A stretch of DNA of 64,000 nucleotides from NCBI GenBank assembly GCA_017438975.1, contig JAFRUH010000033.1, positions 1 through 64,000 on the forward strand, written 5' to 3'. The notes under the pieces were generated by a model, which made no database searches, had not been told where the DNA came from, and saw nothing but the letters and a program-made list of their open reading frames with translations. Numbering within the stretch: the first letter of the stretch is position 1; each line of letters opens with the position of its first letter. Of the stretch, positions 1-18,692 are shown piece by piece. The stretch is from Bacteroidales bacterium. Lineage in GTDB: Bacteria; Bacteroidota; Bacteroidia; Bacteroidales; UBA932. The position numbers and the translations under genes are program-made.

Positions 1-121
1 AAATCTGTAACTTTTCACTTTTTAGCTTTTCAATGGGGCAAGCGACAATATCAAAATCCCCACCCTATTTTTTTATAGGCAGAGGACTCTATCTCCCTCA
101 TTTTCAACCCCTCACGCCGCG

Positions 122-150
122 CCAACATTTTTTGCGCTAAACAATGCAGA
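122..150 (-). repeat. Copy 1 of the TTTAGCGCAAAAA site
   Basis: Read on the minus strand, positions 141 to 122 give TTTAGCGCAAAAAATGTTGG. This 20-mer is identical to 4875-4894 on the plus strand. On the other side, 129-150 matches 3206-3227 in 21 of 22 bases. It has the same orientation as copy 2 and is inverted relative to copy 3. It could be a third recombination or operator site belonging to an operon that lies left of the window. Confidence 0.55.
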
Positions 151-434: not shown

Positions 435-1568
435 ATGGAAGCACCGTTCATATTCGGTCGAATTGCAACTGATGAGAATTTTACGGACCGAGATCAAGAA
501 ATCAAACACCTTGTAAACAATTTCGAATCTCTCATCAACACCATTATCATTTCCCCAAGGCGGTGGGGAAAAAGTTCTCTTGTCCACAAAGCTTCGAGTA
601 TCGCTATGCAGGAGGATCGGACGCTCAAGGTTTGTTCCGTAGATCTTTTCAATGTCAAGACTGAAGAGCAATTTTATACCGTTTTTGCTCAGAGCCTTAT
701 ACAAGGGACGGCCAGCAAATGGGACGAAGCTGTTGAAAATGCCAAGAAGTTCTTTTCACATCTGGTCCCCAAGATTTCTATCGGGACTGATCCGGGCTCC
801 AAAATCTCAATCGACTTTGATTGGGAAGAAATTAAGAAGAACCCAGATGAAATTCTGGATCTTCCAGAGCGCATTGCCCATTCGAAAGGCATTAGAATCG
901 TTGTCTGCATCGATGAATTCCAGAACATTTCAGAATTTGATGATCCTTTGTTCTTCCAAAGAAAACTCCGGGCAAACTGGCAGATGCACCAAAAAGCAAG
1001 CTATTGCCTTTATGGAAGCAAACGGCATATGATGATGGAGGTCTTTGCCGATGCTTCTATGCCTTTTTATAAATTCGGAGACATCTTCTTTCTGAACAAA
1101 ATAGATACAGAGCATTTTGTCCCGTTCATTAAGAAGCGATTTACTTCTACGGGTAAGACCATTACTGAGGATGCTTGTCGCAAGATCGTTGCCCTTGCCG
1201 ATAATCACCCATACTATGTCCAACAACTCTCTCAACTTTCGTGGCTACGCTGTTTGTCGGAGTGCAGAGAAGAGGTTGTCATCAAGGCACATTCGTCTTT
1301 GGTTGAACAGCTCAGCCTGTTATTTACGAATTTAATGGAGACACTTACCTTCCAACAAACCTGTTATCTCCACGCTGTGATAGCAGGAGAAAAAGCCATT
1401 ACCAATTCTGAGACGATGCATAAATATCATATCAGCAGCGCTACGGCTGCTTCCCGTTCTCTCAAAACGCTGATTAATAAAGATATCCTTGATAGCAAAG
1501 CAGGGGTGGTTTCATTCCAGGATCCTATCTTTGAATATTGGCTGAGGCATTATTATTTCCGGATTTAA
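435..1568 (+). CDS. Archaeal-type AAA+ ATPase of unknown role
   Basis: A 377-residue protein of the ATPase_2 / archaeal ATPase superfamily, a STAND-like P-loop family often found as isolated genes in Bacteroidales. A degenerate Walker A, SPRRWGKSSL, lies near residue 42 and a Walker B, VVCIDEFQ, near residue 155. The C-terminal third looks like the winged-helix domain usual in the family and ends WLRHYYF. It has no signal peptide or membrane segment. The gene stands alone behind its own promoter. Its base composition is more AT-rich than the rest of the window, and it is flanked by degraded repeats, both of which suggest acquisition. Family assignment is firm; the cellular role is unknown. 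Confidence 0.8.
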   Translation: MEAPFIFGRIATDENFTDRDQEIKHLVNNFESLINTIIISPRRWGKSSLVHKASSIAMQEDRTLKVCSVDLFNVKTEEQFYTVFAQSLIQGTASKWDEAVENAKKFFSHLVPKISIGTDPGSKISIDFDWEEIKKNPDEILDLPERIAHSKGIRIVVCIDEFQNISEFDDPLFFQRKLRANWQMHQKASYCLYGSKRHMMMEVFADASMPFYKFGDIFFLNKIDTEHFVPFIKKRFTSTGKTITEDACRKIVALADNHPYYVQQLSQLSWLRCLSECREEVVIKAHSSLVEQLSLLFTNLMETLTFQQTCYLHAVIAGEKAITNSETMHKYHISSATAASRSLKTLINKDILDSKAGVVSFQDPIFEYWLRHYYFRI

Positions 1569-1691: not shown

Positions 1692-2942
1692 TTAATCAGG
1701 ATAGTTTACATAAATGATGTGAGCGTGGGGGCTACCGCTTGCCCAATTCGATTGCCCAGAAACTATCTTATTATCGACTACGACGAGATAGAATGTATGG
1801 CCGGTACCGCCTTTTTTATAAGAAACAGTATATATTTCCTCTTCGTTCAGAGTTGTTTTGTCAAAATCGGCCGCGAGGTTAGCATCGGTGGTCCAATCAA
1901 AATCTGCTCCATTTTTATTCTCATCTGTATATAAGTATTCGCGGGTATCTCCGTTCATACGGTAAATTCTTGTCTTTCCGTTTTGCGTTTCAACGCCAAT
2001 TGCATAATCAGCCGGGTTAAGGTTCGGGTCACCCTCCCGTCCTACATATTCTCCTGTTTCAGGATTGTATATACTTAAGGGCTCACCTTCTCCATTATAG
2101 GTAACAAATACAACAGCTCCCTCACCATATCCATCAGGGTCGAAAGGAATATTGGGGATGTTGATCGTGCTGAATCTTTTTATTTTATTTGCCGCGAAGG
2201 TCGTGTTTGCGGTCTTCTTGGACTCTGTGATCGGCTTTACTTGATTCGGGGCTCCTGTTTCCAGATAAACTTGTAGGGCAACAGCACCGACGGGCATGGG
2301 GACGAAGAAATGATCTCCTCCCAAAAGTCCTGTCGGAACCTTGATGGTGTTGCTTCCTGTCGATATTTTCCCGGTAGTTATATCTAGATCACCTGCACAA
2401 GGGACATCCGTTTTGACTACGTAATTAACAGCAACAGAAGGAATCTTTGTAAAGGATACTTCCAGTCCGGCCGTAACATGGCGGAAACGGAGAGTTCCTT
2501 CATACCCTTCTTCGAATTCTGCCACCATGGGATAAAAAAAGCGCTTGTGGCTATCATCGTAGGAATAGGTTGAAGGAAGCGTAATGGTCGTAGCGTTTTT
2601 CTTGCAGGATGCAGGATAAACGGCGATAGTTGTTACGTTTTCAGTTTCAGGAATGGATCCGGAAATGGAAGCAGAGAGTCCGGTCCCATCAACGGTAAAG
2701 TCATAGAACTGACCGTCCGTTGCCAAAACGGCAACTTTATCACCGCTTTCCCAAGAAAATTTTGCGGCATCGTCAATCGTTGCTCTTGTAGCATCGTCGC
2801 TAATGATTTCCGCACCGAAAACCACGTGCTTCATTTTTACGATCTCATTCTCTTCTGCCGTCAGATCGTTGGCCGGCTTGCTACACGCTCCAACTAAGAG
2901 CGCAGCAATAGCGATGTATCCAAATATCTTTTTCATATTCAA
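1692..2942 (-). CDS. Fimbrillin-family lipoprotein (left fimbrial operon)
   Basis: A 416-residue surface lipoprotein. The signal peptide ends in the lipobox LLVGAC, with the Cys near residue 20. The segment DDATRATIDDAAKFSWESGD is the usual start of the mature part of fimbrillin-like proteins (FimA/Mfa/FimB-like families). FRHVTAGLEVSF matches the conserved strand where these pilins begin their second half. The C-terminal ~130 residues, after a DPDGYGEGAVV linker, are not recognised. It follows the 53-residue peptide gene after a 5-nt gap and shares its transcription unit. No TAnnTTTG promoter was found upstream in the present orientation, so it may be silent unless the adjacent recombinase segment is inverted. 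Likely a pilus subunit or tip lipoprotein. Confidence 0.75.
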   Translation of the reverse strand: MNMKKIFGYIAIAALLVGACSKPANDLTAEENEIVKMKHVVFGAEIISDDATRATIDDAAKFSWESGDKVAVLATDGQFYDFTVDGTGLSASISGSIPETENVTTIAVYPASCKKNATTITLPSTYSYDDSHKRFFYPMVAEFEEGYEGTLRFRHVTAGLEVSFTKIPSVAVNYVVKTDVPCAGDLDITTGKISTGSNTIKVPTGLLGGDHFFVPMPVGAVALQVYLETGAPNQVKPITESKKTANTTFAANKIKRFSTINIPNIPFDPDGYGEGAVVFVTYNGEGEPLSIYNPETGEYVGREGDPNLNPADYAIGVETQNGKTRIYRMNGDTREYLYTDENKNGADFDWTTDANLAADFDKTTLNEEEIYTVSYKKGGTGHTFYLVVVDNKIVSGQSNWASGSPHAHIIYVNYPD

Positions 2943-2947
2943 TAGTT

Positions 2948-3109
2948 TTATCCTTCATTCGAGGGTGTGTCCCATTCTTCATCATCCCAACCGGAATTCT
3001 CTCCTTGGGCTCCAGAAAAGAGAACATTCTTTTCTGCTTGCAAATAGGTCATAAAGCACTGCGGCGCTTCATACCTTTGCCTCGTGAATACAATAGTTTC
3101 TTTTTTCAT
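2948..3109 (-). CDS. Small peptide (53 aa) heading the left fimbrial operon
   Basis: An open frame of 53 codons starting MKKETIVFTRQRYEAPQC. It lies 5 nt upstream of the fimbrillin gene in the same direction. Its pattern, a basic MKK start, then YEAP about 13 residues in, then an acidic Trp-containing tail, matches the 51-residue peptide at 5084-5239, which also directly precedes a fimbrillin gene. Short proteins opening with Y-E-x-P occur in other Bacteroidales, but their function is not known to me. It has no signal peptide. Conserved position in two operons supports a real gene; the role is unknown. Confidence 0.6.
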   Translation of the reverse strand: MKKETIVFTRQRYEAPQCFMTYLQAEKNVLFSGAQGENSGWDDEEWDTPSNEG

Positions 3110-3199: not shown

Positions 3200-3227
3200 A
3201 AAGTGTTTTTGCGCTAAAAAATGCAGA
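3200..3227 (-). repeat. Inverted repeat copy 2, left end of candidate invertible segment
   Basis: Minus-strand TTTTTTAGCGCAAAAA at 3221-3206 is a perfect 16-bp inverted partner of 4872-4887. It lies about 100 nt upstream of the left peptide-fimbrillin operon, in the same relative orientation as copy 3 has to the right operon. Confidence 0.6.
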
Positions 3228-3554
3228 TATTTGTCATTATTAATCGATTGATAATCAGTATATTAAGTGCGATTATTGTAGATTTTTATTACCTAAAACT
3301 TTAACAAGCTTTTGATTTATAAATAATTGAAAATATTGAGTAGACAACCGCGAAACGCGTATTTCGTTAATTATCAAGATTTTATAATTTAAAATTATTT
3401 AAAAAATATCAAACTTCCAATTCGTAACCACTATTTCCCGCCATAGAACGCAAATATCCGCCATTCTTGACATGAACCGTATTACTTTGCTTGCAAAGAC
3501 CTGATAATTAAAACGATAGGATAATAGTTCAAACAATTCCCGGAATCTCGGTTA

Positions 3555-3585
3555 TTTGATTATTTGCAGTTATAGCATAACTTTG
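3555..3585 (+). promoter_or_regulatory. Promoter of the small basic protein gene
   Basis: TTTG (3555-3558) and TAACTTTG (3578-3585) are separated by 19 nt. The -7 box ends 5 nt before the ATG at 3591, so the transcript would start at or next to the start codon (leaderless or nearly so). Confidence 0.6.
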
Positions 3586-3590
3586 CGGTG

Positions 3591-3773
3591 ATGGCAGTAA
3601 AGAAAAAGAAAAACCGGAAACGAATAACGGAGCGCGACTATATCAAGGCCCAGCGGAGGGCATCGCGCCTGGAAGAGATCGAAGCGCACGGCAAGCCGGT
3701 CTCCTTCCGACCGGTTGTCGTGCGCTCAAAAAAGGTCTATGACCGGAAGCGGGTCAAACGGGAAGACTTCTAA
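3591..3773 (+). CDS. Small highly basic protein (60 aa)
   Basis: Sixty residues starting MAVKKKKNRKRITERDY. By my count 22 are Lys or Arg and 8 are Asp or Glu. It has no Cys, no membrane segment and no recognised domain. The ATG at 3591 is preferred over the adjacent GTG at 3588 because the promoter lies immediately upstream. It converges with the tyrosine recombinase gene, whose stop is 14 nt away, inside the same inverted-repeat-bounded segment. That position makes it a candidate DNA-binding accessory or directionality factor for the recombinase, but this is inference from position and charge alone. Confidence 0.55.
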   Translation: MAVKKKKNRKRITERDYIKAQRRASRLEEIEAHGKPVSFRPVVVRSKKVYDRKRVKREDF

Positions 3774-3787
3774 CCCGCCCGGTATTG

Positions 3788-4735
3788 TCATTGTGTCAGT
3801 TTATGGCTCCGCAGGACCCGTTCGAGCCTGTCGACGTCCCCTGAGAGTTTGGCAGAGGTAAGTTTGGCGTATATCTGGGTTGTCGCAATGCTGGTATGGC
3901 CCAGGATAGAACTGATGCTCTCTATCGGCATCCCGTTCGTCATCGCGATCGTCGCAAAGGTGTGGCGCGCGATATGGAAGGTCAGGGGCTCATGGAACCC
4001 GCAGATCTTCGAGAGCCGTTTAAGCCTGTCGTTCATGACGGTATAACTGCCTATATTAAAAATATGAGCATCCGTGCGCTCGGGTTCATATTGTTTCATG
4101 ATTGCCATGGGAACTTTCATGAGCTTGATCCGGAAGAGCGTTTGGGTCTTCTTGCGTTGGCTGACGATCCATAGCGACTTCCCGATTTCGATCAACTGGT
4201 CCTCGGTCAGGCTCTTCAGGTCCGCGAAAGAGATTCCCGTCCAGCAGCTGAATACGAACATGTCCCTCGTAAAGGCCATCTTCGGATCCGGGATCTCCTT
4301 GGTCATAAGCAGTTTCAGTTCGCCTTCCGTTAAGTACCGGCGGGCCTTGACGTTTGGACGGATATGGTAATCGGAACACGGGTTCGTCGGGATCTGTCCA
4401 TTCTTGAACGCTTGTGAACAGACCCTCTTGAGAGGGATCTGGTAGAGCCAGACCGTCGACTGCGTGAGTCCTTTGTCCAGAAGGTGTTTGCAGAACAGCC
4501 GTATGAATTCCTCCGAGAGTTCGTCCAGCCGGATGTCGGCCTTTCCGTAGTGGATCCGGATAAAATCCTCGAGATGATTCCGGACAATAAGGTACTTCAT
4601 ATAGGTGCTCCGGGATCTGTCGACCCCGACCCGTTGCCGGAAAACAGTTAGATCGGAATCGAAGGTTTTTAGTAAATAAATCTTCTTTTTCGTTTTTGAA
4701 GCGTTTTGGTTGTTAATAACCTTGTTCATAACCAT
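3788..4735 (-). CDS. Tyrosine site-specific recombinase (fimbrial switch candidate)
   Basis: A phage-integrase-family recombinase of about 315 residues. An N-terminal SAM-like arm (around residues 35-125) is followed by the catalytic domain. Visible catalytic residues are HIARHTFAT (His-x-x-Arg), GHTSIATTQ (His) and the nucleophile in QIYAKL. The first catalytic Arg is replaced: the usual TGxR motif reads WTGISFADL, with Ser. A Ser at this position is also described for the CTnDOT integrase of Bacteroides. The frame extends to a TTG at 4792, but the ATGs at 4735 or 4729 (MNKVINNQN) are better starts. Lying between inverted repeats and two divergent fimbrial operons, it is the likely invertase, analogous in layout to the E. 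coli fim switch. The identity of its target site is inferred. Confidence 0.8.
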   Translation of the reverse strand: MVMNKVINNQNASKTKKKIYLLKTFDSDLTVFRQRVGVDRSRSTYMKYLIVRNHLEDFIRIHYGKADIRLDELSEEFIRLFCKHLLDKGLTQSTVWLYQIPLKRVCSQAFKNGQIPTNPCSDYHIRPNVKARRYLTEGELKLLMTKEIPDPKMAFTRDMFVFSCWTGISFADLKSLTEDQLIEIGKSLWIVSQRKKTQTLFRIKLMKVPMAIMKQYEPERTDAHIFNIGSYTVMNDRLKRLSKICGFHEPLTFHIARHTFATIAMTNGMPIESISSILGHTSIATTQIYAKLTSAKLSGDVDRLERVLRSHKLTQ

Positions 4736-4832
4736 GGCATTTTTAAAGTATGTATCAATAGACGTTGATCCAGGCCGTGTGGCCAAAATCAAAAAAAAAT
4801 ATACTTACGTACGCATTTTTCTCATAAAACTC

Positions 4833-4863
4833 TTTCAAATTGGCCAAAAAGTATTTATATTTG
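4833..4863 (+). promoter_or_regulatory. Rightward promoter inside the candidate invertible segment
   Basis: TTTC (4833-4836), a 19-nt spacer and TATATTTG (4856-4863) form a good Bacteroides promoter. It lies 8 nt inside inverted-repeat copy 3 and reads outward to the peptide-fimbrillin-VWA operon. Inversion between copies 2 and 3 would point it at the left fimbrillin operon instead. Confidence 0.65.
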
Positions 4864-4868
4864 CAGGT

Positions 4869-4894
4869 GATTTTTTTAGCGCAAAAAATGTTGG
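4869..4894 (+). repeat. Inverted repeat copy 3, right end of candidate invertible segment
   Basis: TTTTTTAGCGCAAAAA at 4872-4887 is the exact inverted partner of copy 2, and 4875-4894 is identical over 20 bases to the minus strand of copy 1. The core is itself a near-dyad (T-run, GCGC, A-run). Confidence 0.6.
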
Positions 4895-5083
4895 TCGGTT
4901 TGAACGGCTCACGAAATGTGCCACAGAGCGCGTTGAGAGGCCGATTTTTGAACGACTCAATTTTGAAGCGCTGAATCATAATAAGTTAGTCTCGCTGCAG
5001 CGTTGCTGACGCGAGTAACAATTTGTCAGGGCGGGCGCCCGGACACTTGAAAGCAGAAAATAATATGTTAAAACTGTAGGAAT

Positions 5084-5239
5084 ATGAAAAAACAAACACA
5101 ATTGGAGTACGAAACTCCCTTCATTGTTGTACATGAAGTGGCGTTTGAAGGAGATCTCTGCCAGTCAAAGATCGAGGCAAACATCACCGTGGAAGATCTG
5201 GATGAGGAAAATGGCTCTGACCATGACCTTGAATTCTAA
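5084..5239 (+). CDS. Small peptide (51 aa) heading the right fimbrial operon
   Basis: An open frame of 51 codons starting MKKQTQLEYETPFIVVHE, with FEGDLCQSKIEAN in the middle and a strongly acidic tail (VEDLDEENGSDHDLEF). It lies 18 nt upstream of a fimbrillin gene and is the counterpart of the 53-residue peptide at 2948-3109 (shared MKK start, Y-E-x-P motif, acidic tail). It has no signal peptide. A single Cys in an LCxS context follows the motif. Position and pattern conservation suggest translation; the function is unknown to me. Confidence 0.6.
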   Translation: MKKQTQLEYETPFIVVHEVAFEGDLCQSKIEANITVEDLDEENGSDHDLEF

Positions 5240-5257: not shown

Positions 5258-6811
5258 ATGAAAAAGACCAATCTTATAATTCTTGCTTTGCTTTCTGCGC
5301 TCGCTGCTATCCTGTTTGTTTCCTGCGAGCGCGAAAATGACATCAACCAGCACGTTGCCGGAGATAATGAAATCGCCTTCAGGGTCGTCAACCCTGCGAC
5401 CAGGGCCTCCATTGCGGAGACGACGAACCTGATTCCCCTCGAAGAGGATGAGGACGGGAACGTGTTCACGCTCGAAGAAACCGTGATCGACCTGAATGCA
5501 GCCGGTGTCGTTACGAGAGGTACTCCCGTCACGACCGATAATGCCGCGACTTTGTATAAGAAGTTCTGGGCCATCGCCTACGACTCCGCACTAAGCGAGG
5601 TCGCTCTCGAGGGCGTCGCCTTTGATTTCAGCAACGAGGTTTGGGCGCACAGCTATCACAAGAACCCTTGGGAAAAAGCCGACCCGCTCAAATTCTTCAT
5701 GTGGATGCCGGCCGACGACAGCGGCGATATGGCGGGTGTTTCCGCTGACGGTTTCACTCCGACGGCCAATGGTCTGAGATTCTCCTACGAGTCTCCGACC
5801 AGCAGCAGCGGAACCTCGGATGCCGTCGAGCAGGAGGACATCGTCTTCTCTTCCGCGACGCTCACCAAATCGACCTATGATCCTTCCACGGGCGCGTCCA
5901 TTGAATTCCATCACGCCCTCACCGGTGTCAAGTTCACCATCTCGAACGACAACACCATCGCCAACAAGACTTATATCACAAAGGTCGTTATCAACGGCCT
6001 CAAGTCTGCCGGAACCTGCGTCATGGGAACGAGCGCCACTTGGACCCCCGGGACGGCGACGGCTTCTTTCACGCAGGAATACACGAAAGATAACGTCATT
6101 TCCGGAGGAAGCGGATATCCTGCCCTGAATGACGATGAAACGTCGATGACTTTCTGGGTTATCCCCCAGCAGCTGACTGACAACGTTACGCTTGAGATCA
6201 CTTTCCATCTCGAGAATGGCACCAAGGTCGGTGAAGATATTGTCCGAACGGTCGCCCTCGGAACGGCCCTTGGCAATCCGACCTGGACTTCCGGACAGCT
6301 CCATACTTTCTCGCTCAAGGGCAAAGAGGTCGTTATCCATGCTGATGATGAGATTGTAAACGGCGTGAAGAAGAATATCGACATTACGAATCACGGTAAT
6401 GTGAATTGCTTCATCCGTGCGATGATTATCGGCAACTGGGTTGACGAGGATGGACTTCCGATTTTCGGATACACCGACTTCAAGACTCCGGGAGCCGAAT
6501 ATACTGAAATTCCGTCCTGGACGATTGAAGGTGCTTTGAATGGCGCAGCTTATGCGGGCTCATTTGTCGGCCTCCCCGGAAATGGTTGGGTGCGTAGTAC
6601 TGACGACGGGTATTTCTATTACACGACTGCCGTTGCTCCGGAAGCAAGTACGGTGCCTCTCTTCACCTCCTTTACGCCTTCAGCAACCGTCCCGCAGTAT
6701 GAGATTGCGGGTAAGCCTATTAACACCACTTTCTTCATGGAGATCGCCGTTCAGGCGATTGAGGCCAAGGAGGGAGAAACCTATACGCAGGCATGGGGAA
6801 ATACACAATAA
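5258..6811 (+). CDS. Fimbrillin-like lipoprotein with extra C-terminal domain
   Basis: A 517-residue lipoprotein with a signal peptide and lipobox FVSC (Cys near residue 23). The first ~355 residues show fimbrillin features: NPATRASIAET near the mature start, then EFHHALTGVKFTISN, the conserved strand of Mfa/FimA-type proteins. The last ~155 residues begin KKNIDITNHGNVNCFIRAMI. This resembles the opening of TasA/camelysin-type secreted fibre proteins of Gram-positives (K-N-x-G-N-V-D-x-x-I-R-x), and such a domain is unusual on a fimbrillin. It precedes the VWA adhesin after a 19-nt gap that contains AAAGGAGG. It is probably a fimbrial shaft or anchoring subunit that partners that adhesin; the C-terminal similarity is by eye only. 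Confidence 0.7.
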   Translation: MKKTNLIILALLSALAAILFVSCERENDINQHVAGDNEIAFRVVNPATRASIAETTNLIPLEEDEDGNVFTLEETVIDLNAAGVVTRGTPVTTDNAATLYKKFWAIAYDSALSEVALEGVAFDFSNEVWAHSYHKNPWEKADPLKFFMWMPADDSGDMAGVSADGFTPTANGLRFSYESPTSSSGTSDAVEQEDIVFSSATLTKSTYDPSTGASIEFHHALTGVKFTISNDNTIANKTYITKVVINGLKSAGTCVMGTSATWTPGTATASFTQEYTKDNVISGGSGYPALNDDETSMTFWVIPQQLTDNVTLEITFHLENGTKVGEDIVRTVALGTALGNPTWTSGQLHTFSLKGKEVVIHADDEIVNGVKKNIDITNHGNVNCFIRAMIIGNWVDEDGLPIFGYTDFKTPGAEYTEIPSWTIEGALNGAAYAGSFVGLPGNGWVRSTDDGYFYYTTAVAPEASTVPLFTSFTPSATVPQYEIAGKPINTTFFMEIAVQAIEAKEGETYTQAWGNTQ

Positions 6812-6830: not shown

Positions 6831-9047
6831 ATGAAAAAAATATTCAATTTCTTGCTTTCCAGCATTGCACTCATTGCTTTCATCCCGACAATGAATGCCC
6901 AGCCTTATACGGAAGGAACCGGAGAAGCGGAGGGCCTCGCCTATAGCAAAACGATTGCGGGTCCAGATAATGGAATCTATACCATTACTCTTGAGTCTTT
7001 CGTGTTGGGTGAAGTAAAGATCACACAAGGAGTCCCTGCGGATATCGTCCTTGTCCTGGACGTTTCGGGATCCATGAATGATGATTATTCGACCGATGAA
7101 TATACTGCTCAGCCAAGTGCAAGCTATACTTATAATGACTTCGAAGATGGCGTGTACTATTATAGGGACAATAATGGGACTTATTATCCGGTAACAAAGA
7201 AAAGTCGGACATCCGGCAATACCACTTATTATGGCTTATATTACTCGGTTACGGGTTCGGGCTGGTTTTCATCTACAACTTATTATTATTTAAAGGGAAC
7301 GACAGCCCAGAATGCGGGGAATAATAACAATAATCGTCCTAACAATACTTATGGCGTAAATAGTCCTACGGCGACCATTTGGACGGGTGTTCTTTACAAG
7401 AAAACGTCAAGCCAACAAAGCAGAATCGATGCATTGAAGCAAGCCGTCGGAGGTTTCATCGATGTAATTGCCGCGAATGCTGAATCCAGCGGCCAGGACA
7501 ATCAGATAAGCATCGTAAAGTTTGCAACTGCTGCATACTACGGTAGTGCGAGTAGTCTTACAGAAGGAAATCACAGAGGTGCTAATAACAATAATAATTA
7601 TAATTATACTGAAGTAGTAAGGACGTGGACAGATGTTTCGTCTGCTGCTAACGTAACTTCTCTGAAGAATTCCGTTAACGCGATTCAAGCAGGTGGTGCA
7701 ACTGCTGTTGACTATGGCCTGACCAAAGCGAATTATCTGCTGGCCGACCTGCCTTCTGACAGACAGAGTGCCAAGACTGTCGTTGTATTTACTGATGGAG
7801 TTCCGACACATAGCAACGCTTCTAGCGTATCAGAAGTTGAGGGAGTCGCAGACGATGCTATTGACGATGCCAAGACCATCAAAAGTCTGTATGCCTATAC
7901 TGACCCCGATAATGTATCTCATAATGCAAAAGTGTATACCGTCGGCGTTTTCAAGGACGATAGCGAATCTCTGTGTACTCCGACCAGTGGTAACCCGTCA
8001 AGTTACACGCTTAGTGACTACATGAACTATTTGTCTTCCAATTATCCGAGTGCGGAAAGTTTGAGCAGCCCCGGAACCGGCAGTGACGAAGGTTTCTATC
8101 AAAATGCTGCGGACGGCGACCTTGAATCCATTTTCAGGTCCATTGCTACTGCCTCCGGCGGTGCTGGTGCTTCCCTTGATGCAGGAACTGTTGAAGCCAT
8201 TGATGTTGTTTCCCAGAGTTTCCAGCTTCCTAACGGAGCCTCCACTAATATTGGAGTCTATTTTGCGGCCTGTACTGGCAAGGACGATGATGGATATCTG
8301 ACTTTTGCTCCGAAGGCGAGTTGGATCTCCAATCCCGCGGAAGGAGAGGATGGTCATGTTTCCATAACTATTACTGGAAATACAGTTACTGCAAGTGGAT
8401 TTGATTACAGCGATGAATGGTGCGGACCGGATGCAACAACCGGAGGATTTCATGGTCATAAGCTGATCCTTCAAATTCCGATCGAGATGGCCGATGAGGC
8501 TGTCGGCGGACAAGGTGTTGACACTAACGGCCCGGGATCCGGTATCTTCATTGGTGGAAAGAATATTCTCCCGTTTGAGTCTCCGGACGTTAGCCTTCCG
8601 ACGAATATCCACATCCAGAAGGTGGGTCTTTCTGATGGAGAAAGCGCCGTGTTTAAGATTTATCGCACAGCGGCCAATGCTGACGGAACACCGGCTAATA
8701 GCAACTGGACTTATTACAAGACGGTTATCATTATCGAAGGGATGAACGAAGATTCGACGGTCAAGCTTCGCGGTCTCGACCCGAACTACGCTTACAAGAT
8801 CGAAGAAGCGGGCTGGAGCTGGGCCTACGATACGACCAATCCGGAAGGAGAAGACGGCAACCCGCTGACGGAAGTCACTTCCGACAAGCTTATCACCAAC
8901 CCGTTCACGTTCACGAATACCCTGAACACGAAGGGCCAAACGATCATCCGTGCGGAGAGCGCCGTCGTCAATGACTTCAAGACTTCGACGGCTACGAATA
9001 TCGATTCGAAGAACACTGCTCCGAAAGCAGCCTCTAAATCGAAATAA
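6831..9047 (+). CDS. VWA-domain fimbrial tip adhesin (Mfa5-like)
   Basis: A 738-residue secreted protein with a cleavable signal peptide (MNAQPYTEG near residues 21-29). The von Willebrand A domain has a complete MIDAS: DVSGSM at 77-82, GGATAVDYGL around 288-297 and FTDG at 320-323. Between the DxSxS loop and the next helix sits an insertion of about 115 residues rich in Tyr, Asn, Gly and Thr (about 84-197). After residue ~590, NIHIQKVGLSDGESAVFKI and a FTNTL ending suggest a Cna-B/prealbumin-like domain of the kind found in Gram-positive pilus proteins. Porphyromonas Mfa5 is also a VWA-containing minor fimbrial protein with isopeptide chemistry, so a tip adhesin role is plausible. It is the last gene of the right fimbrial operon. 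Confidence 0.75.
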   Translation: MKKIFNFLLSSIALIAFIPTMNAQPYTEGTGEAEGLAYSKTIAGPDNGIYTITLESFVLGEVKITQGVPADIVLVLDVSGSMNDDYSTDEYTAQPSASYTYNDFEDGVYYYRDNNGTYYPVTKKSRTSGNTTYYGLYYSVTGSGWFSSTTYYYLKGTTAQNAGNNNNNRPNNTYGVNSPTATIWTGVLYKKTSSQQSRIDALKQAVGGFIDVIAANAESSGQDNQISIVKFATAAYYGSASSLTEGNHRGANNNNNYNYTEVVRTWTDVSSAANVTSLKNSVNAIQAGGATAVDYGLTKANYLLADLPSDRQSAKTVVVFTDGVPTHSNASSVSEVEGVADDAIDDAKTIKSLYAYTDPDNVSHNAKVYTVGVFKDDSESLCTPTSGNPSSYTLSDYMNYLSSNYPSAESLSSPGTGSDEGFYQNAADGDLESIFRSIATASGGAGASLDAGTVEAIDVVSQSFQLPNGASTNIGVYFAACTGKDDDGYLTFAPKASWISNPAEGEDGHVSITITGNTVTASGFDYSDEWCGPDATTGGFHGHKLILQIPIEMADEAVGGQGVDTNGPGSGIFIGGKNILPFESPDVSLPTNIHIQKVGLSDGESAVFKIYRTAANADGTPANSNWTYYKTVIIIEGMNEDSTVKLRGLDPNYAYKIEEAGWSWAYDTTNPEGEDGNPLTEVTSDKLITNPFTFTNTLNTKGQTIIRAESAVVNDFKTSTATNIDSKNTAPKAASKSK

Positions 9048-9251: not shown

Positions 9252-10022
9252 TTACTTGGAGCTGCGCTCGCCGCGCTCACCCCTGCCACGTCCGCCACGA
9301 CGACCGCCACGGTCGCCGCCGCGTCCGCCGCTCCGACCGGTACCCTGACCGGCAGCCTGGGCGTTGGCAGCAAATGCGGCATTCGGAGAAAGGTCCTGCT
9401 TGCCGAATTTCTCTCCGTTGCAGATCCAAACCTTGATACCAAGGGTACCGACCTTCGTATTCGCGACTGCGAGTGCGTAGTCGATGTCAGCACGGAAAGT
9501 GTGGAGCGGAGTACGTCCTTCCTTGAACATCTCGCTGCGGGCCATTTCAGCGCCGCCGATACGGCCGCTGATCTGGACCTTGATGCCTTCTGCACCAACC
9601 CTCATCGCGGTAGCGATGGCCATCTTGACGGCGCGCCTGTAGGACACGCGGCCCTCGATCTGGCGGGCGATGCTGTCGGCGACGATCGTAGCGTCAACTT
9701 CCGGGCGCTTGACCTCGAAGATGTTGATTTGGACGTCTTTCTTCGTAACCTTCTTGAGCTCTTCCTTCAGACGGTCGACTTCCTGGCCGCCCTTGCCGAT
9801 GATGACACCCGGACGGGCCGCATGGATCGTAACGGTGATGAGCTTAAGGGTACGCTCGATAATGATTCTGGAAAGGCTGGCCTTTGCCAGACGGTTCTGG
9901 AGATACTTGCGGATTTCGTAGTCCTCGGCGATCTTCTCCGGATAGTTACCACCACACCAGTTAGAGTCCCAACCACGGGTGATACCGATTCTGTTGCTGA
10001 TAGGATTAGTTTTCTGTCCCAT
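9252..10022 (-). CDS. rpsC: 30S ribosomal protein S3
   Basis: A 256-residue S3 that binds 16S rRNA in the 30S head at the mRNA entry. [13 protein letters not shown] is the family start. The KH domain carries [15 protein letters not shown] around residues 72-86, and the C-terminal domain continues to [10 protein letters not shown]. After about residue 205 an extra tail follows, rich in Arg and Gly ([20 protein letters not shown]). S3 in Bacteroides also has a basic extension, but this one is strikingly RGG-like. It is the last gene here: rplP, which normally follows, is absent and a terminator lies downstream. Confidence 0.97.
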
Positions 10023-10025
10023 GAT

Positions 10026-10442
10026 TTATTCCTCCACTGCAGGTTTCTTAACATCGAGGACAACGGTAACGTGGTTGGAACGCTTGCGGATACGTCCGGC
10101 ACGGCCCTGCGGGCAAGGACGGATGCGCTTGAGGGTGCGTCCCTCTCCGACCATGATGGTCTTCACGTAAACATTGCCATTATCAAGTTCGGATGCCTGA
10201 TCCGGATTCTTGGCCTCCCAGTTGGCGATGGCGCTCCTGAGAAGTTTCTCCAGACGGATCGATGCCTCTCTCTTCGAGAATTTGAGAAGATCGAGGGCAT
10301 GGTTGACTTCCTCACCCCGGACGGTGTCAGCGACAAGGCGCATCTTCCGCGGAGAAGTAGGAACGTCGTTGAGCTTTGCTATAGCGGTCTGCTTCTTGGC
10401 CTCTTTCAGCCTCTCAGCCATAAGTCTTTTTCTCTTTCCCAT
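10026..10442 (-). CDS. rplV: 50S ribosomal protein L22
   Basis: A 138-residue L22 that lines the peptide exit tunnel. [16 protein letters not shown] and the C-terminal hairpin region [21 protein letters not shown] are diagnostic. It has an N-terminal extension of about 25 residues ([17 protein letters not shown]), as is usual in Bacteroidetes. It is separated from rpsC by 3 nt. Confidence 0.97.
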
Positions 10443-10461
10443 AATGTCAATCTTTTAAACA

Positions 10462-10734
10462 TTATTTCTTATTGTTGCCTGAGTGGCCTCTGAAAGTTCT
10501 GGTAGGCGCGAATTCACCGAGCTTGTGACCAACCATGTTCTCAGTTACATAAACCGGAATGAACTTGTTTCCATTATGAACTGCGATAGTATGGCCGACA
10601 AAGTCAGGGGAAATCATGCTGGCACGCGACCAAGTCTTGACAACCTCTTTCTTCTTGCTACCGTCATTCATAGCAAGAATTCTGTTCTCCAGGGCTTCCT
10701 GGATGTACGGTCCTTTTTTAAGTGAACGACTCAT
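10462..10734 (-). CDS. rpsS: 30S ribosomal protein S19
   Basis: A 90-residue S19 of normal length. [10 protein letters not shown] at the start and [18 protein letters not shown] near the end are the family signatures. It contacts S13 and the A-site finger in the 30S head. It lies in canonical order between rplB and rplV. Confidence 0.97.
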
Positions 10735-10754
10735 AATTTCTCAGTATTATTCCG

Positions 10755-11579
10755 TTATTTCTTTCTTCTTTCAATGATGAACTTGTTGGAAACGGCCTTC
10801 GGGTTACGCGTCTTCTTACCCTTTGCAGGGAGACCCTTGCGGGAACGCGGATGACCACCGGAGGCACGTCCTTCACCACCACCCATCGGGTGATCGTGCG
10901 GGTTCATGACAACACCACGGTTGTGCGGACGGCGACCGAGCCAACGGCTGCGGCCGGCCTTTCCGGACGACTCGAGGTTGTGATCCGGGTTGGAAACGGT
11001 ACCGACGGTGGCGCGGCAGGCGACCGGAACCATACGGGTCTCGCCCGAAGGGAGACGGAGGATGGCGTAGTTGCCTTCACGGGCGGCCAGCTGGGCGAAC
11101 GTACCGGCGGAACGTGCCATGGCGGCACCCTGTCCGGGACGAAGCTCGATGGCGTGCACGAGCGTACCTACGGGAATAGCACTGAGAGGGAGGGTGTTAC
11201 CGAGCTCCGGAGCGACATTGGCGCCGGATTCGACAACCTGACCGACCTTGAGTCCGTTCGGGGCAAGGATATACCTCTTCTCGCCGTCTGCGTATTCGAC
11301 GAGGGCGATACGGGCGCTGCGGTTCGGGTCATATTCGATAGTGAGGACCGTAGCCTGGATTCCATCCTTGTTGCGGAGGAAGTCGATGATACGGTACATT
11401 CTCTTGTGGCCGCCGCCGATGTAGCGTACGGTCATCTGACCGGTGTTGTTGCGGCCGCCGGTCGATTTGAGAGGAGTCAGAAGCTTCTTGTACGGTTTCT
11501 TAGCAGTAATCTCCTCGAATGAACTGATGGCCTTGTTTCTCTGGCCAGGAGTCACCGGTTTGTATTTCTTGATTGCCAT
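10755..11579 (-). CDS. rplB: 50S ribosomal protein L2
   Basis: A 274-residue L2, the peptidyl-transferase-centre protein. [15 protein letters not shown] is the hallmark motif containing the key His, and [19 protein letters not shown] is a typical end. It lies in canonical order after rplW. Confidence 0.97.
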
Positions 11580-11593
11580 AGTGCTTCCTCCTC

Positions 11594-11899
11594 TTAGATG
11601 TTAGCGTAGAAATCGATCTTATCATCACCGGCAAGGGTAATGTAGGCCTTCTTGAAGTGATTGGTGCGGCCTTTGAGAAGTCCCGACTTGGTGTAGCGGG
11701 ATTTGCGCTTGCCGTGGTAGTTGGCCGTATTGACGTCGGCGACGGTAACGTTGTACATCTGCTCGACTGCGGCTTTGATCTGGAGCTTGTTCGCTCTACG
11801 GTCCACGATGAAACCGTAACGGTTCAACTTTTCGCCCTGAGCCGTCATTTTCTCTGTTACGATTGGCTTAATTAAAATTCCCATTTTCGCGTTCTCCAT
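11594..11899 (-). CDS. rplW: 50S ribosomal protein L23
   Basis: A 101-residue L23 at the exit-tunnel rim, the docking site for SRP and trigger factor. [26 protein letters not shown] and [19 protein letters not shown] identify it. Its ATG overlaps the rplD stop by one base (taATG), indicating translational coupling. Confidence 0.96.
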
Positions 11900-12525
11900 T
11901 ATTTAACCCTTGCAGCGAGAATGTCCTGTACACCGTCCACGAGCACGAGGTTGTGCGCGTTCATGATGGTGTAAGTGTTGATTTCGTCAACAGTGATGAC
12001 CTTCACCTCAGGAAGATTGCGTGATGAAAGAAAGATGTTGTCTGAATTCGAAGGGAGGACGAAGAGAACCTTGCGGTCGCCGGCCTTGATGGCGGCGAGG
12101 ATGTTCTTGAACTCCTTGGTCTTCGGGGCGTCCATGGCGAACGGCTCGACGAGGGTAATCTTGCCTTCCTGGGCCTTGTAGGACAGGGCGGAAAGACGGG
12201 CAAGCTGCTTGACCTTCTTGTTCAGTTTGGTATCATAGCTACGCGGTTTCGGGCCGAATACGCGGCCGCCGCCGACGAAGATGTTCGCCTTGAGGGAGCC
12301 GTGACGTGCACCGCCGCCGCCCTTCTGGCGTCCGAGTTTCTTGGTAGAATAAGCGACCTCGCTCCTGTCCTTCGTCTTGGAAGTACCCTGACGCTGGTTG
12401 GCGAGATACTGGATGACATCGAGATAGATGGCGTGATCGTTCGGTTCGATTCCGAAGACCTTCTCATCGAGGACCACCTTCTTTCCGGATTCGGTTCCGT
12501 CGATCTTGTATACTGACAATTCCAT
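11899..12525 (-). CDS. rplD: 50S ribosomal protein L4
   Basis: A 208-residue L4. The central loop that reaches into the exit tunnel carries [21 protein letters not shown]. In some bacteria L4 autoregulates the S10 operon; no equivalent leader structure was recognised here. It sits 2 nt after rplC. Confidence 0.97.
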
Positions 12526-12527
12526 AA

Positions 12528-13154
12528 TTAAGCCTCCAGAATAATGTAAGAACCCTTGGCTCCCGGGACGGAGCCCTTGACAACGAGAAGATTGTTTTCC
12601 GGGATGACCTTGAGGACCTCGAGGTTGAAGACCTTCACCCTCTCATTGCCCATATGGCCCGCCATACGCATTCCGGGGAGGACGCGGGACGGCCAGGAAG
12701 ATGCACCCATGGAACCAGGATGACGGAGACGGTTGTGCTGACCGTGGGTCTTGCCGCCTACGCCCGCGAAGCCGTGACGCTTCACGACGCCCTGGAAACC
12801 TTTACCTTTAGAAGTACCGACGACGTCCACGAACTTGACGTCTTCAGTGATGACGTCAGTGAGCGTGAGGGTGTCGCCCAGTTTCAGCTCTCCCGCGAAG
12901 TCCGCCGGAAATTCGACGAGCTTGCGCTTGGGAGTGGTTCCTGCCTTTTCGAAATGGCCCTTCAGAGCCGCGCTGGTGTGTTTCTCTTTCTTTTCGTCAT
13001 AGGCAAGCTGCACGGCGGCATAACCATCTTTCTCTACCGTACGAACCTGCGTGACAACACATGGACCAGCCTCAACGACGGTGCATGGAATATTTTTTCC
13101 ATCAGCACCGAAGACGGAAATCATTCCGACTTTCTTTCCAATTAATCCAGGCAT
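12528..13154 (-). CDS. rplC: 50S ribosomal protein L3
   Basis: A 208-residue L3. [15 protein letters not shown] and [20 protein letters not shown] mark the family; the latter loop approaches the peptidyl-transferase centre. It is the first gene of this operon fragment. In most bacteria rpsJ lies directly upstream, but here the upstream neighbour is a divergent cdaA gene, and rplC has its own promoter. Confidence 0.97.
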
Positions 13155-13214
13155 TGGTTTGCTAATTGTTTGTTAATTAATACTTTAAATACTCCCGCAT
13201 ACTTTTGCGGACCG

Positions 13215-13245
13215 CAAAGATACGAATAATTTTCTGATTTTCAAG
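13215..13245 (-). promoter_or_regulatory. Promoter of the rplC-rpsC operon
   Basis: On the minus strand, CTTG (13245-13242), a 19-nt spacer and TATCTTTG (13222-13215) match the Bacteroides pattern. It lies about 60 nt upstream of rplC and shows that the fragment is transcribed independently of rpsJ. Confidence 0.75.
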
Positions 13246-13300
13246 TACTTTTCAACACTTTTTTCAACACCGGAATCTTCTAAATCTCCCAAAATGTAAC

Positions 13301-13308
13301 TATCTTTG
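13301..13308 (+). promoter_or_regulatory. -7 box of the cdaA operon
   Basis: TATCTTTG ends 7 nt before the cdaA ATG at 13316, implying a transcript with almost no 5' leader. No clear -33 box is seen. Confidence 0.55.
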
Positions 13309-13315
13309 CAGCCGT

Positions 13316-14116
13316 ATGAAAACGGTGCTCGCACTCTTCGGTTTCCTGCAGCTTTCGCTGATAGAAGTACTGGACATCCTGATGGTTGCCCTGATCATCT
13401 ATTTCCTGTTCCGGCTGATCAAGGACTCCTCGGCGGTCAACATCTTCGCCGCCCTCGTCGTCCTGCTGCTGGGCCAGGTGATCGTCAGCGCCCTCGGGAT
13501 GAAGATGATGAGCACGATCCTGAACGCCCTGCTGGACGTCGGCGTCCTGGCGATCATCGTGATCTTCCAGCCCGAGATCCGCCACTTCCTCAACCGGATC
13601 GGAACCCAGACCGGCATCGCCCGCAAGGCCGGGGATATCTTCAACAAATTCCTAGGCATCAAGGAGGAACAGATGGGCAACGCCGCCGTCCAGGAAATCA
13701 CCGAAGCCTGCCGTTCCATGGCCGCCGACAAGACCGGCGCCCTGATCGTGATCCCCCACAAGGCTTCCCTGGATTCCATCATCGAGACGGGCGACCGGAT
13801 CGACGCGAATATCAACCGCAGGCTCATCATGAACCTGTTTTTCAAGAACTCCCCCCTCCACGACGGGGCGATGATCATCCGCGGCAACCGCATCGTGGCG
13901 GCCCGCTGCACCCTTCCGATCACGTCCCGGACCAACATTCCGCCCAGTTTCGGCATGCGGCACAAGGCCGCCATCGGGATTTCCGAGGAGACGGACGCGG
14001 ACGTCATCGTCGTCTCCGAGGAGACCGGCCACATCGTCTTCGTCAACAGCGGGGAAGTTACCCTTATTAATAATATAAATGAGCTCAAGCTCAAGCTGGG
14101 CTCCGCGCTTTCATAG
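13316..14116 (+). CDS. cdaA: Diadenylate cyclase CdaA (c-di-AMP synthase)
   Basis: A 266-residue membrane-bound diadenylate cyclase that makes cyclic di-AMP from two ATP. Three N-terminal transmembrane helices (about 12-35, 40-62, 66-85) are followed by the DAC domain. Its signatures are SPLHDGAMII (the catalytic DGA) and GMRHKAAIGISEETDA (the RHxAA motif). Length is normal for CdaA/DacA. It heads a five-gene operon with mutS2 one base downstream and starts opposite the ribosomal operon. c-di-AMP typically controls potassium and osmotic balance; no receptor gene is nearby. Confidence 0.93.
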   Translation: MKTVLALFGFLQLSLIEVLDILMVALIIYFLFRLIKDSSAVNIFAALVVLLLGQVIVSALGMKMMSTILNALLDVGVLAIIVIFQPEIRHFLNRIGTQTGIARKAGDIFNKFLGIKEEQMGNAAVQEITEACRSMAADKTGALIVIPHKASLDSIIETGDRIDANINRRLIMNLFFKNSPLHDGAMIIRGNRIVAARCTLPITSRTNIPPSFGMRHKAAIGISEETDADVIVVSEETGHIVFVNSGEVTLINNINELKLKLGSALS

Positions 14117-14117
14117 G

Positions 14118-16643
14118 ATGATCGACAAGAGATTAGAGGAGAAACTGGGATTCAGCAGGGTGAGAGCCGCCATTTCCGACCGCTGTTCTACGGACTACGC
14201 GGCTCTTCGGGTGGCGGAAGAGGAGTTTTCCAGCGACGGGAAGGAGATCCAGGAAAGGCTCTCCCGGACCGATGAGATGCGGCTGATCCTGATGTTCGAG
14301 GAGAACTTCCCGACCAGCGGCTACATCGACTGCATCGGTTTCCTGGAAGCGATCGGGAACGACGCTTCGATCGACCAGCTCTCCCTCGGCAAGCTCCGGA
14401 CCCTCCTCGATACCCTGCGGAAGATCCACCATTTCTTCCGGGGAATCAAGGACGGGATCTATCCCTGCCTGAAAAAGGCGGCCGACGGCATCCTGTCGTT
14501 CCCGGAAGTGGTCCGCCGCATCGACGGGATCCTCGATAAGTACGGGGAGATCAAAGACTCGGCTTCCGACGCCCTCTTCGAAATCCGCCGGGAGATCCGG
14601 GAAAAGGAACTGAGCGTCTCCAGGCGCATCAACACCATCCTCCGGAAGGCCCAGCAGGACGGAATCGTGGACACGGACGCGGGCATCTCGATCCGAGACG
14701 GAAAGATGCTCATCCCTGTCAATTCTTCCCGGAAAAAGGCCCTCCCGGGCTTTGTCCATGACGAATCCGCCTCCGGCAAGACGACCTTCATCGAACCCGC
14801 CGAGATCGTCGAGATGAACAATGAGATCAGCGAGCTCCATTTCGCGGAGACCCGCGAGATCTCGAAGATCCTCCGGGAGTTCTCGGATTTCCTCCGGCCC
14901 TATGTCCCTGACCTCCTCATCGCCGCCGCCTTCATCGGGGAGATGGACTTCCTGATGGCCAAGGCCCAGGTCGCCCTGGACTACATCGCCGGGATGCCGG
15001 TGATCTCCACGGACGGGACCCTGAGCCTCAGGAAAGCCCGCCATCCCCTGCTCGAGAAGGCCCTGAAGAAGGAAAAGAAACCCATCGTCCCCCTGACGGT
15101 CACCCTCTCCCCCGAGAAACATATCCTCCTGATCTCAGGCCCGAACGCCGGCGGCAAGTCCGTCTGTCTCAAGACCGCCGGACTGCTGCAGTACATGTTC
15201 CAGTGGGGCATGCTGATCCCGACGTCGGAGTCCTCCGAACTGCCAGTCTTCGACCGGATCATGGTCTCGATCGGGGACGACCAGTCGATCGACAACGACC
15301 TCTCTACCTATAGCTCCTTCCTCGCCGACATGCGGTCCATGCTCTCCGAGGCCGACGGAAAGACCCTCGTGCTGATCGACGAGTTCGGGTCCGGAACGGA
15401 ACCGGCCGCCGGCGGGGCCATCGCCGAAGCGATCCTCGCCGCCTTGGACGCCCGCGGGACCTACGGGGTCATCACGACCCACTATACCAACCTCAAACTC
15501 TACGCCTCCGGGGCGCAGACAGGGGTCGTCAACGGGGCCATGCTCTTCGACGCCCAGAAAATCGAGCCGATGTTCAAGCTCGAAATCGGTCTCCCGGGCA
15601 ATTCCTTCGCCTTCGAGCTGGCCCGGAAGATGGGCCTTCCCGAAGAGATCGTAAAGGATGCGGAGAACCGGGCCGGGGAAGAGTTCGTCGGCATCGAACG
15701 GAACCTCCGGAAGATCGCCCGGAACCGCAAGGCCCTCGACGAGAAACTCCAGAAAATCCGCGCGACGGACAAGACCCTCGAGCAGATCACCGACAAGTAC
15801 CAGAAAGAACTTTCCGACATCAAGCAGCTCCGCCGGAACATCCTCGACGAGGCGAAACAGGAGGCGGAGGACATCATCCGGAGCGCCAACAAGCAGGTGG
15901 AGAACACGATCCGGACGATCAAGGAGACCCAGGCGGAAAAGACTGCCACGCAGGACGCCCGGAAAGAACTCCAGGACTTCCTCGGCGCCCTCGAGGAGAA
16001 AAAGGTCCGCGACAAGAGGAACCGCGAGGAGTACCTCGAAAAGAAGCTCCAGGACCTCGAGAAACGGAAGGAAAAGGAGAAAGCGAGAAAGGCCCGCCGC
16101 TCCCGCACCGAAGGTCAGGAAACTTCATCAGCGGAGTTGGAAGAACAGCAGATCAACGCGTTCCGTTCCGCTCCGCTCCAGGTAGGGGAAAAGGTCCGGC
16201 TGAAGGACAACGGGATGGTCGGCGAGATCAGCAAGGTTTCCGCCAAGGCCGTCTCGGTCATCGTCGGCAGCATTACGACCAAGCTCCCGCGGGAGAGGGT
16301 CGAACGTGTCACCTCGAACGAATACCGGACGGCGCTCCGGCAGACGGCGCCCCCGCCCCGGCAGCAGTACGACCTCGGCCTGAGCGAGCGGAAGCTGAAT
16401 TTCAAGCCGGAAATCGACCTGCGCGGGGCTCGCGTCGGCGAAGCGATCGAAATCGTCATGCGCTTCCTCGACGACGCGATCATGCTGGATGTTCCCTCGG
16501 TGCGGATCCTGCACGGAAAGGGAACCGGCGCCCTCCGGGAGGAGATCCAGAAATACGCCCGGACGGTCCGGGGGGTGACCTCGGTCTCGGATGAGCACAT
16601 CCAGTTCGGCGGCAGCGGCGTCACGGTCGTCAAATTCAGATAA
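14118..16643 (+). CDS. mutS2: Endonuclease MutS2
   Basis: An 841-residue MutS2. The clamp/lever region is followed by the ABC ATPase, with Walker A SGPNAGGKSV near residues 337-346 and Walker B LVLIDEFGSGTEP near 416. A long charged coiled coil (about 510-680) leads to the C-terminal Smr nuclease domain (LDLRGARVGEAI, ILHGKGTGALRE). MutS2 acts on branched DNA and collided ribosomes rather than in mismatch repair. The ATG at 14118 is chosen, one base after the cdaA stop; the upstream frame overlaps cdaA. Confidence 0.94.
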   Translation: MIDKRLEEKLGFSRVRAAISDRCSTDYAALRVAEEEFSSDGKEIQERLSRTDEMRLILMFEENFPTSGYIDCIGFLEAIGNDASIDQLSLGKLRTLLDTLRKIHHFFRGIKDGIYPCLKKAADGILSFPEVVRRIDGILDKYGEIKDSASDALFEIRREIREKELSVSRRINTILRKAQQDGIVDTDAGISIRDGKMLIPVNSSRKKALPGFVHDESASGKTTFIEPAEIVEMNNEISELHFAETREISKILREFSDFLRPYVPDLLIAAAFIGEMDFLMAKAQVALDYIAGMPVISTDGTLSLRKARHPLLEKALKKEKKPIVPLTVTLSPEKHILLISGPNAGGKSVCLKTAGLLQYMFQWGMLIPTSESSELPVFDRIMVSIGDDQSIDNDLSTYSSFLADMRSMLSEADGKTLVLIDEFGSGTEPAAGGAIAEAILAALDARGTYGVITTHYTNLKLYASGAQTGVVNGAMLFDAQKIEPMFKLEIGLPGNSFAFELARKMGLPEEIVKDAENRAGEEFVGIERNLRKIARNRKALDEKLQKIRATDKTLEQITDKYQKELSDIKQLRRNILDEAKQEAEDIIRSANKQVENTIRTIKETQAEKTATQDARKELQDFLGALEEKKVRDKRNREEYLEKKLQDLEKRKEKEKARKARRSRTEGQETSSAELEEQQINAFRSAPLQVGEKVRLKDNGMVGEISKVSAKAVSVIVGSITTKLPRERVERVTSNEYRTALRQTAPPPRQQYDLGLSERKLNFKPEIDLRGARVGEAIEIVMRFLDDAIMLDVPSVRILHGKGTGALREEIQKYARTVRGVTSVSDEHIQFGGSGVTVVKFR

Positions 16644-16647
16644 CCGT

Positions 16648-17025
16648 ATGATTACCAAGGGGAAAAAGGCGCTCGGGGAACTCGGGGAACAATTATCCTG
16701 CGATTTCCTCGTCGCAAACGGCCACCGTATTCTCGAACGGAACTGGCGAAGCGGCCATCTTGAAATAGATATCATCTCCGAGGACGGGAACGGCGTGCAT
16801 TTTGTAGAGGTAAAGAGCCGTACGGCACCCGTGGAAACGGACCCCGAAGAGAAGGTAGACGCCCTCAAGCAGAAGAAAATCTGCGCCGCCGCGCTCCGGT
16901 ATCTCGCGAGCGGACGGACAACCGGAGACCGGGAGGTTTTCTTCGACATCATTTCCGTCGTTTTCGAGGGTGGCAGCCATACCCTCCGGTACTTTCCCGA
17001 GGCCTGGATACCTATGTACACATAA
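16648..17025 (+). CDS. YraN / UPF0102 family nuclease-like protein
   Basis: A 125-residue protein of the UPF0102 (YraN) family, with a restriction-endonuclease-like fold. GELGEQLSCDFLVANGHRIL, then GHLEIDIIS with the acidic active-site Asp, then VHFVEVKSRT with the E-x-K pair, are the family motifs. It starts 4 nt after mutS2. Its role is thought to lie in DNA processing but is not established. Confidence 0.88.
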   Translation: MITKGKKALGELGEQLSCDFLVANGHRILERNWRSGHLEIDIISEDGNGVHFVEVKSRTAPVETDPEEKVDALKQKKICAAALRYLASGRTTGDREVFFDIISVVFEGGSHTLRYFPEAWIPMYT

Positions 17026-17038
17026 CGATAACACCTAT

Positions 17039-18124: not shown

Positions 18125-18125
18125 T

Positions 18126-18662: not shown

Positions 18663-18670
18663 AGGCCTTA
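18637..18670. terminator. Hairpin overlapping a stop codon, likely terminator
   Basis: AAGGCC-TTATTGA (18637-18650) pairs with TCAATAA-GGCCTT (18657-18670) with one mismatch. The hairpin includes the lipoprotein stop codon and lies between convergent genes. Confidence 0.55.
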
Positions 18671-18692
18671 CATTCAATTATTTCCACCCTTC

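Follow-up and report, generated by a model that had tools for sequence, protein, structure and literature searches.

In the Vpma locus of Mycoplasma agalactiae (Xer1), and likewise in vsp and vsa, there is one promoter, and DNA inversions choose the surface gene, as described in the available part of PMC2268961. The locus presented here shares with Vpma, as far as that account goes, a unique promoter, recombination sites placed in the 5' untranslated regions of several surface-protein genes and an adjacent tyrosine recombinase. It differs in that Vpma is made up of single lipoprotein genes in Mollicutes, where switching has been proven by gene disruption, whereas here whole operons in the Bacteroidia are concerned and switching is a proposal. 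The likeness is one of way of working, and homology with Xer1 or with the mycoplasma lipoproteins is not claimed.

Within the same phylum, the available parts of PMC4747536 and PMC3090145 describe Tsr0667 with its shufflon-type SusC/SusD clusters and Tsr19 with its promoters in Bacteroides fragilis. These share with the present locus a tyrosine recombinase and promoter inversion or multiple inversions at surface-protein clusters. In those accounts, however, Tsr0667 and Tsr19 are master enzymes acting at several places and on other surface genes, whereas here one enzyme gene appears to travel with the promoter inside one putative fimbrial island. SusC/SusD genes, which mark the rearranging ends of the B. 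fragilis clusters, were not found here, the operon proteins scanned giving neither family. Fimbrillin family genes are enriched near some gut-bacterial inverton groups (PMC11892184, available part) and phase-variable fimbrial loci are described in B. fragilis (PMC12632263, available part); the invertons of the former account are single, whereas here one promoter would be common to several operons.

In Providencia stuartii, an 844-bp putative invertible segment near fimbriae encloses a recombinase gene (PMC5903667, available part). The recombinase is within the segment here too, but the P. stuartii account, in that part, has one segment with 14-bp imperfect repeats and describes no island of further sites. 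The same source gives the E. coli fim switch, where promoter inversion controls fimbriae, as an element of about 300 bp that carries the promoter only, with its recombinases outside. The original prediction had likened the present locus to fim, which is apt for the proposed function; in structure the two differ, the segment here being 1.65 kb with the recombinase inside. A limited literature search found neither one promoter shared by several fimbrial operons nor a multi-way choice of fimbriae in the Bacteroidia. The principle is known from Vpma, and several fimbrial operons on one promoter would be a new variation of it.

The window, which is the whole 64-kb stretch of DNA analysed, is the start of contig C33 of a 2.8-Mb source genome (G000). 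A repeat search identified a perfect 16-bp inverted repeat in it, at 3206-3221 (site L, minus strand) and 4872-4887 (site R, plus strand). The sites are short, with near-dyad arms around AGCGC. Their 13-base core, TTTAGCGCAAAAA, has three copies in the window against 0.01 expected from shuffles (up to 1 mismatch) and four in the whole genome, where the pattern read backwards has none. The third copy (site X, 129-144, minus strand) has 1 mismatch to the 16-mer and pairs with 4872-4894 at 96% over 23 nt; its leader extends leftward as far as the first base of the contig. The fourth (C12:87020-87035) is 19 nt from the end of another G000 contig, C12, which flanks the same chromosomal island on the left. 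A genome search for the 16-mer allowing up to 3 mismatches gave 18 rows: the four places, each with 0 or 1 mismatch, and 14 rows that have 3, two of which are sites L and R on the opposite strand. Its backwards control gave 23 rows. The 3-mismatch rows are not above this control, and beyond the four there are no near-exact copies of the site in the genome. A single exact 16-mer in another genome, G055, for which no recombinase match is listed, was taken as chance.

The one close relative found is the uncultured Bacteroidia bacterium RUG13467 (G095), presumably a rumen genome by its RUG name, in which the island is spanned by a single 185-kb contig. The regions C12 78300-83554 and C33 9146-18192 match G095 134001-139251 and 169098-178151, respectively. 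C12, a gap and C33 therefore form one island with the same flanks in both genomes and a rearranged inside. There are five sites with 0-1 mismatch in G095, all in the island (144168+, 148766+, 157589-, 158793+ and 164003+) and four of them in direct orientation. The orthologous recombinase of G095 lies in the interval from 157589- to 158793+, and the promoter adjoins 158793; in G000 and G095 alike the recombinase is enclosed by opposed sites.

The promoter of the G000 switch is at 4842-4863 on the plus strand. Its -7 box, TATATTTG at 4856-4863, is followed by C and fits TANNTTTGY, the promoter consensus used (PMC12632263, available part). The promoter ends 8 nt before site R, and the distance from -7 box to core is 9-11 nt. 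This 22-nt element has no second copy in the genome when as many as 3 mismatches are allowed, and it is conserved in G095, the promoter flanks of the two genomes matching with a z of 44. Of the nine sites in both genomes, two have a TANNTTTGY box within 150 nt upstream, one per genome, these being the promoter site of each species, so that there is one promoter for several gene heads as in Vpma. The other seven have no such box within 150 nt upstream, although at one of the G095 sites TATATTTGA, 36 nt upstream, is a near-promoter that fails only at the last base. Inverted repeats bound a TANNTTTGY-type promoter with a tyrosine recombinase beside it, which are two of the marks of Bacteroidales invertible promoters; a third would be the presence of both orientations. 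The perfect repeat, the recombinase and the outward promoter by the right repeat had all been predicted and are borne out, but that picture was incomplete, having missed the copy at 129-144.

The same promoter faces different operons in the two species. In G000 it faces a lipoprotein-VWA operon; in G095 it faces the operon of a 468-aa lipoprotein, and the rightmost VWA operon there has a bare site. Among the genomes searched there are no carriers of the system beyond these two, which are different species, and a scan of genome contigs for genomes of the same species as G000 returned one locus only, that of RUG13467. The difference in promoter partner could therefore be old and fixed.

Seven of the nine sites have DNA reaching a gene, and all seven head an operon of a peptide followed by a lipoprotein; the remaining two, at 129-144 and in C12, run off their contigs. 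In each of the seven the site is within the leader before the first gene, as in Vpma, with 109-291 nt from core to first ATG, a peptide of 45-61 aa and then a gene that reads as a lipoprotein, the lipobox being judged by eye. The peptide start is like MKKQTKMEYVSP in six of the seven, that of the left operon of G000 departing from it, and the product is perhaps a surface or regulatory peptide. The left operon opens with a 53-aa peptide (2948-3109, minus strand), 109 nt after the core, and continues with a lipoprotein (1692-2936, minus strand). A hairpin at 1632-1669, a perfect 16-nt inverted repeat with a 6-nt loop, is probably a terminator and separates it from a neighbouring ATPase_2 family gene (435-1568, plus strand; Pfam 2.9e-08), which is divergent from site X. 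The right operon, on the plus strand, has a leader (4888-5083) resembling the G095 leaders at 144 and 158 (z 9.7 and 5.8), a 51-aa peptide (5084-5239) whose start is like that of G095, a lipoprotein (5258-6811) with 36% and 31% identity to two G095 operon proteins, and a VWA-domain surface protein (6831-9047; Pfam VWA 2.2e-08). The two operons had been called equivalent; this is true of their openings, a peptide of 51-53 aa and then a lipoprotein, but the left one is without a VWA gene.

Neither lipoprotein matched a Pfam family. For each of them the top Foldseek hit, obtained with a poor model, is a Bacteroides fimbrial or adhesion protein: the fimbrial protein 4eps for the left (E 4.4e-5; pLDDT 43) and 4k4k for the right (E 2.8e-7; pLDDT 57). 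The right lipoprotein also reached the biofilm-matrix model TIGR04090 at 1.5e-06, which is below the model cut-off, and its start is a weak match to the FimD tip adhesin model (0.0009). On these predicted structures and matches, both lipoproteins are probable fimbrillins and the operon products are likely to be fimbrial. Of the operon at site X, only the leader is present (1-121, minus strand), cut by the contig start, and its first 32 nt from the core are shared with the end of C12. A search of G000 with the VWA protein found no match besides itself at E<=0.001, and inspection of the five smallest contigs by eye revealed nothing fimbrial. Operon X seems to be unassembled.

The flanks of the sites are mosaic. 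They were compared over 142 nt on each side, excluding the core and the nearest 8 nt, in 36 upstream pairs and 28 leader pairs, the latter fewer since C12 ends. For the G095 sites at 144 and 148, the upstream flanks match with a z of 43 and the leaders with a z of -0.9. The reverse is seen at 144 and 158 (leaders z 72, upstream z 1.0) and at 148 and 164 (leaders z 47, upstream z 2.1), with a weaker upstream match between 144 and 164 (z 4.8). In the alignments, similarity begins or ends at the site. The G095 leaders follow the kind of operon and the upstream flanks do not; the exception is the right operon of G000, which includes a VWA gene but has a leader belonging to the other kind. This change of partner at the sites is most simply read as the scar of exchange by recombination there. 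Duplications that chanced to break at the sites could give the same mosaic, less simply.

The assembly itself bears on the sites. Comparison of all 66 contig ends of G000 found 18 end pairs sharing 25-mers, five of which share exactly 141 nt, and the assembly word was therefore probably 141, the largest default of MEGAHIT. The stretch C33:1-141 reaches from the contig start to the first core base, so the contig ends one 141-nt word past the boundary of site X. This would be expected if leader X had two upstream sequences in the reads, and a repeat of leader X in the unassembled gap could explain it too. C12 shares the first 32 bases of C33:1-141, after a one-base difference at 142; this short overlap is explained by a further fork and equally by low coverage. 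Two of the four sites are within 150 nt of a contig end, for which the chance, computed after the fact, is 7.5e-5. The contig ends at site X and at the C12 site fit mixed junctions, without proving them. No inverted junction was observed. C33 is unbroken at 3206 and 4887, as is the G095 contig at its switch, and neither sample is therefore visibly mixed there.

It is likely, on these sequence data, that a single promoter is shifted by site-specific inversion and thereby determines which of four or five fimbrial operons is expressed. The recombinase encoded at 3788-4735 would cut and act at the short near-dyad AGCGC sites, with inversion as its main product. The leader joined at the promoter-adjacent site would be transcribed, and the remaining leaders, with no promoter, would be silent. 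Inversion between sites L and R (3222-4871) would shift the promoter from the right operon to the left, and inversions with the further sites (129-144 and the C12 end) would bring other operons to it. The outcome would be one of four or five operons chosen, rather than two states, and if the products do build fimbriae, each cell would wear one type at a time. In a model allowing all inversions between opposed sites, the five operons of G095 can be arranged in 48 ways, and no operon is more than two inversions away from the promoter; G000 has 12 arrangements, with each head again within two inversions, the gap being assumed to be headed at both ends. Site pairs in direct orientation could also delete material, as the several direct sites of G095 would favour.

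The original prediction was of an invertible promoter between two operons. As a recombination switch it is supported by the conserved module and the partner changes; its plain two-operon form does not accommodate four sites in G000 and five in G095. It is unlikely that only L and R recombine and that the other copies are relics or inactive. L and R match perfectly over 16 nt and bound the recombinase-promoter segment, a type of segment conserved in G095, as this simpler switch would have it, but the sites away from the switch are equally conserved, head operons and show partner changes, and it is at the remaining two sites, rather than at L or R, that contigs end.

The predicted tyrosine recombinase (315 aa, 3788-4735, minus strand) has the Phage_integrase catalytic domain (1.7e-16) and the SAM-like Phage_int_SAM_5 domain (1.1e-12) of Pfam. 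It has 74% identity to that of G095, and the dN of 0.17 against a dS of 1.24 for this pair indicates a gene maintained by purifying selection. Matches at E<=1e-60 are present in 10 of 400 genus genomes, with more than 70% identity only in G000 and G095. Among 398 relatives of G095 there are 16 matches, and only G095 itself exceeds 70%. Viral contigs searched with the recombinase protein and with the promoter-site pattern gave no match. Arm-DNA-bind_5 is absent from both switch recombinases and present in all three distant relatives scanned (G392, G504 and G033; 51, 48 and 44% identical), which are full integrases and, as judged by eye, on mobile elements.

Such relatives raise the possibility of a system akin to an integron or transposon, in which the integrase cuts out operon cassettes and re-inserts them at the sites, promoter choice following from insertion. 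The direct orientation of four of the five G095 sites and the duplicated stretches in the island would suit this. It is nevertheless improbable, as the module occupies a single conserved position in the chromosomes of the two species, with opposed sites round a recombinase that has no arm domain, and neither an array of cassettes nor a free circle was seen. Selection by inversion of the one promoter is also preferred over an operator common to the operons, the alternative offered with the original prediction, or more broadly a start-proximal control element that does not recombine. The near-dyad symmetry of the motif, and its place directly behind the -7 box where each species has its promoter, are as expected of an operator, but this reading is very improbable because it accounts neither for the seven sites without a TANNTTTGY box within 150 nt upstream nor for the mosaic, with its change of similarity partner, nor for the contig ends at the motif. 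Misjoining of mixed-strain contigs into artefactual repeats and a false mosaic is hardly credible, for although both are assembled genomes and a gap interrupts the island in G000, the module, flanks and promoter were independently assembled in two species, with the G095 island in one 185-kb contig.

If selection by inversion is right, the island is a case, from uncultured Bacteroidia, of DNA rearrangement making a mutually exclusive choice between entire adhesion operons, and of an integrase turned into a local invertase. The exact junctions are named, making it testable with existing metagenome reads. We give an even chance to the fuller proposal that promoter and recombinase form a module of integrase origin, its arm-binding domain lost, which allows only one of the four or five whole fimbrial operons to be expressed at a time, and that the same logic recurs in the genus with an unrelated site, in G033. 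There, three exact copies of TTTTGGGCGTGRAA are present genome-wide, confined to a single locus, and the reversed control has one match at up to 1 mismatch.

This G033 locus (L066, G033:C5:175000-194000, 9742-19001) has two divergent fimbrillin-VWA gene pairs and the 44% identical recombinase. Two of the TTTTGGGCGTGRAA sites flank the region between the divergent operons, and one copy precedes the apparent 3' part of a VWA gene.

The segment between L and R also encodes a small basic protein (3588-3773, plus strand). Its family is present in 32 of the 121 genus genomes searched and is absent from the G095 switch, the G095 copy being on a different contig, and a motif search recognised no tyrosine integrase near it in the seven loci inspected. 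A role as cofactor of the switch was rejected on these grounds, and the protein is a probable passenger in the segment. The family (window 3591-3773) has no name in Pfam or NCBIfam and is scattered across the genus.

ATPase-like genes adjoin bare sites, on the strand opposite to the operon, at 435-1568 in the window and at 142549, 147161 and 162399 in G095 C3; the last has AAA_14 and DUF4143 domains. Two operons of G095 are followed by a 586-nt duplication (C3 146260-146844 and 160663-161248, 92.8%), and in G000 a relative of the duplicated gene stands on the left flank of the island (C12 83733-84614). Also at the left flank, a TPR gene is inverted between the species (G000 C12 85094-86458, G095 C3 139316-140566).
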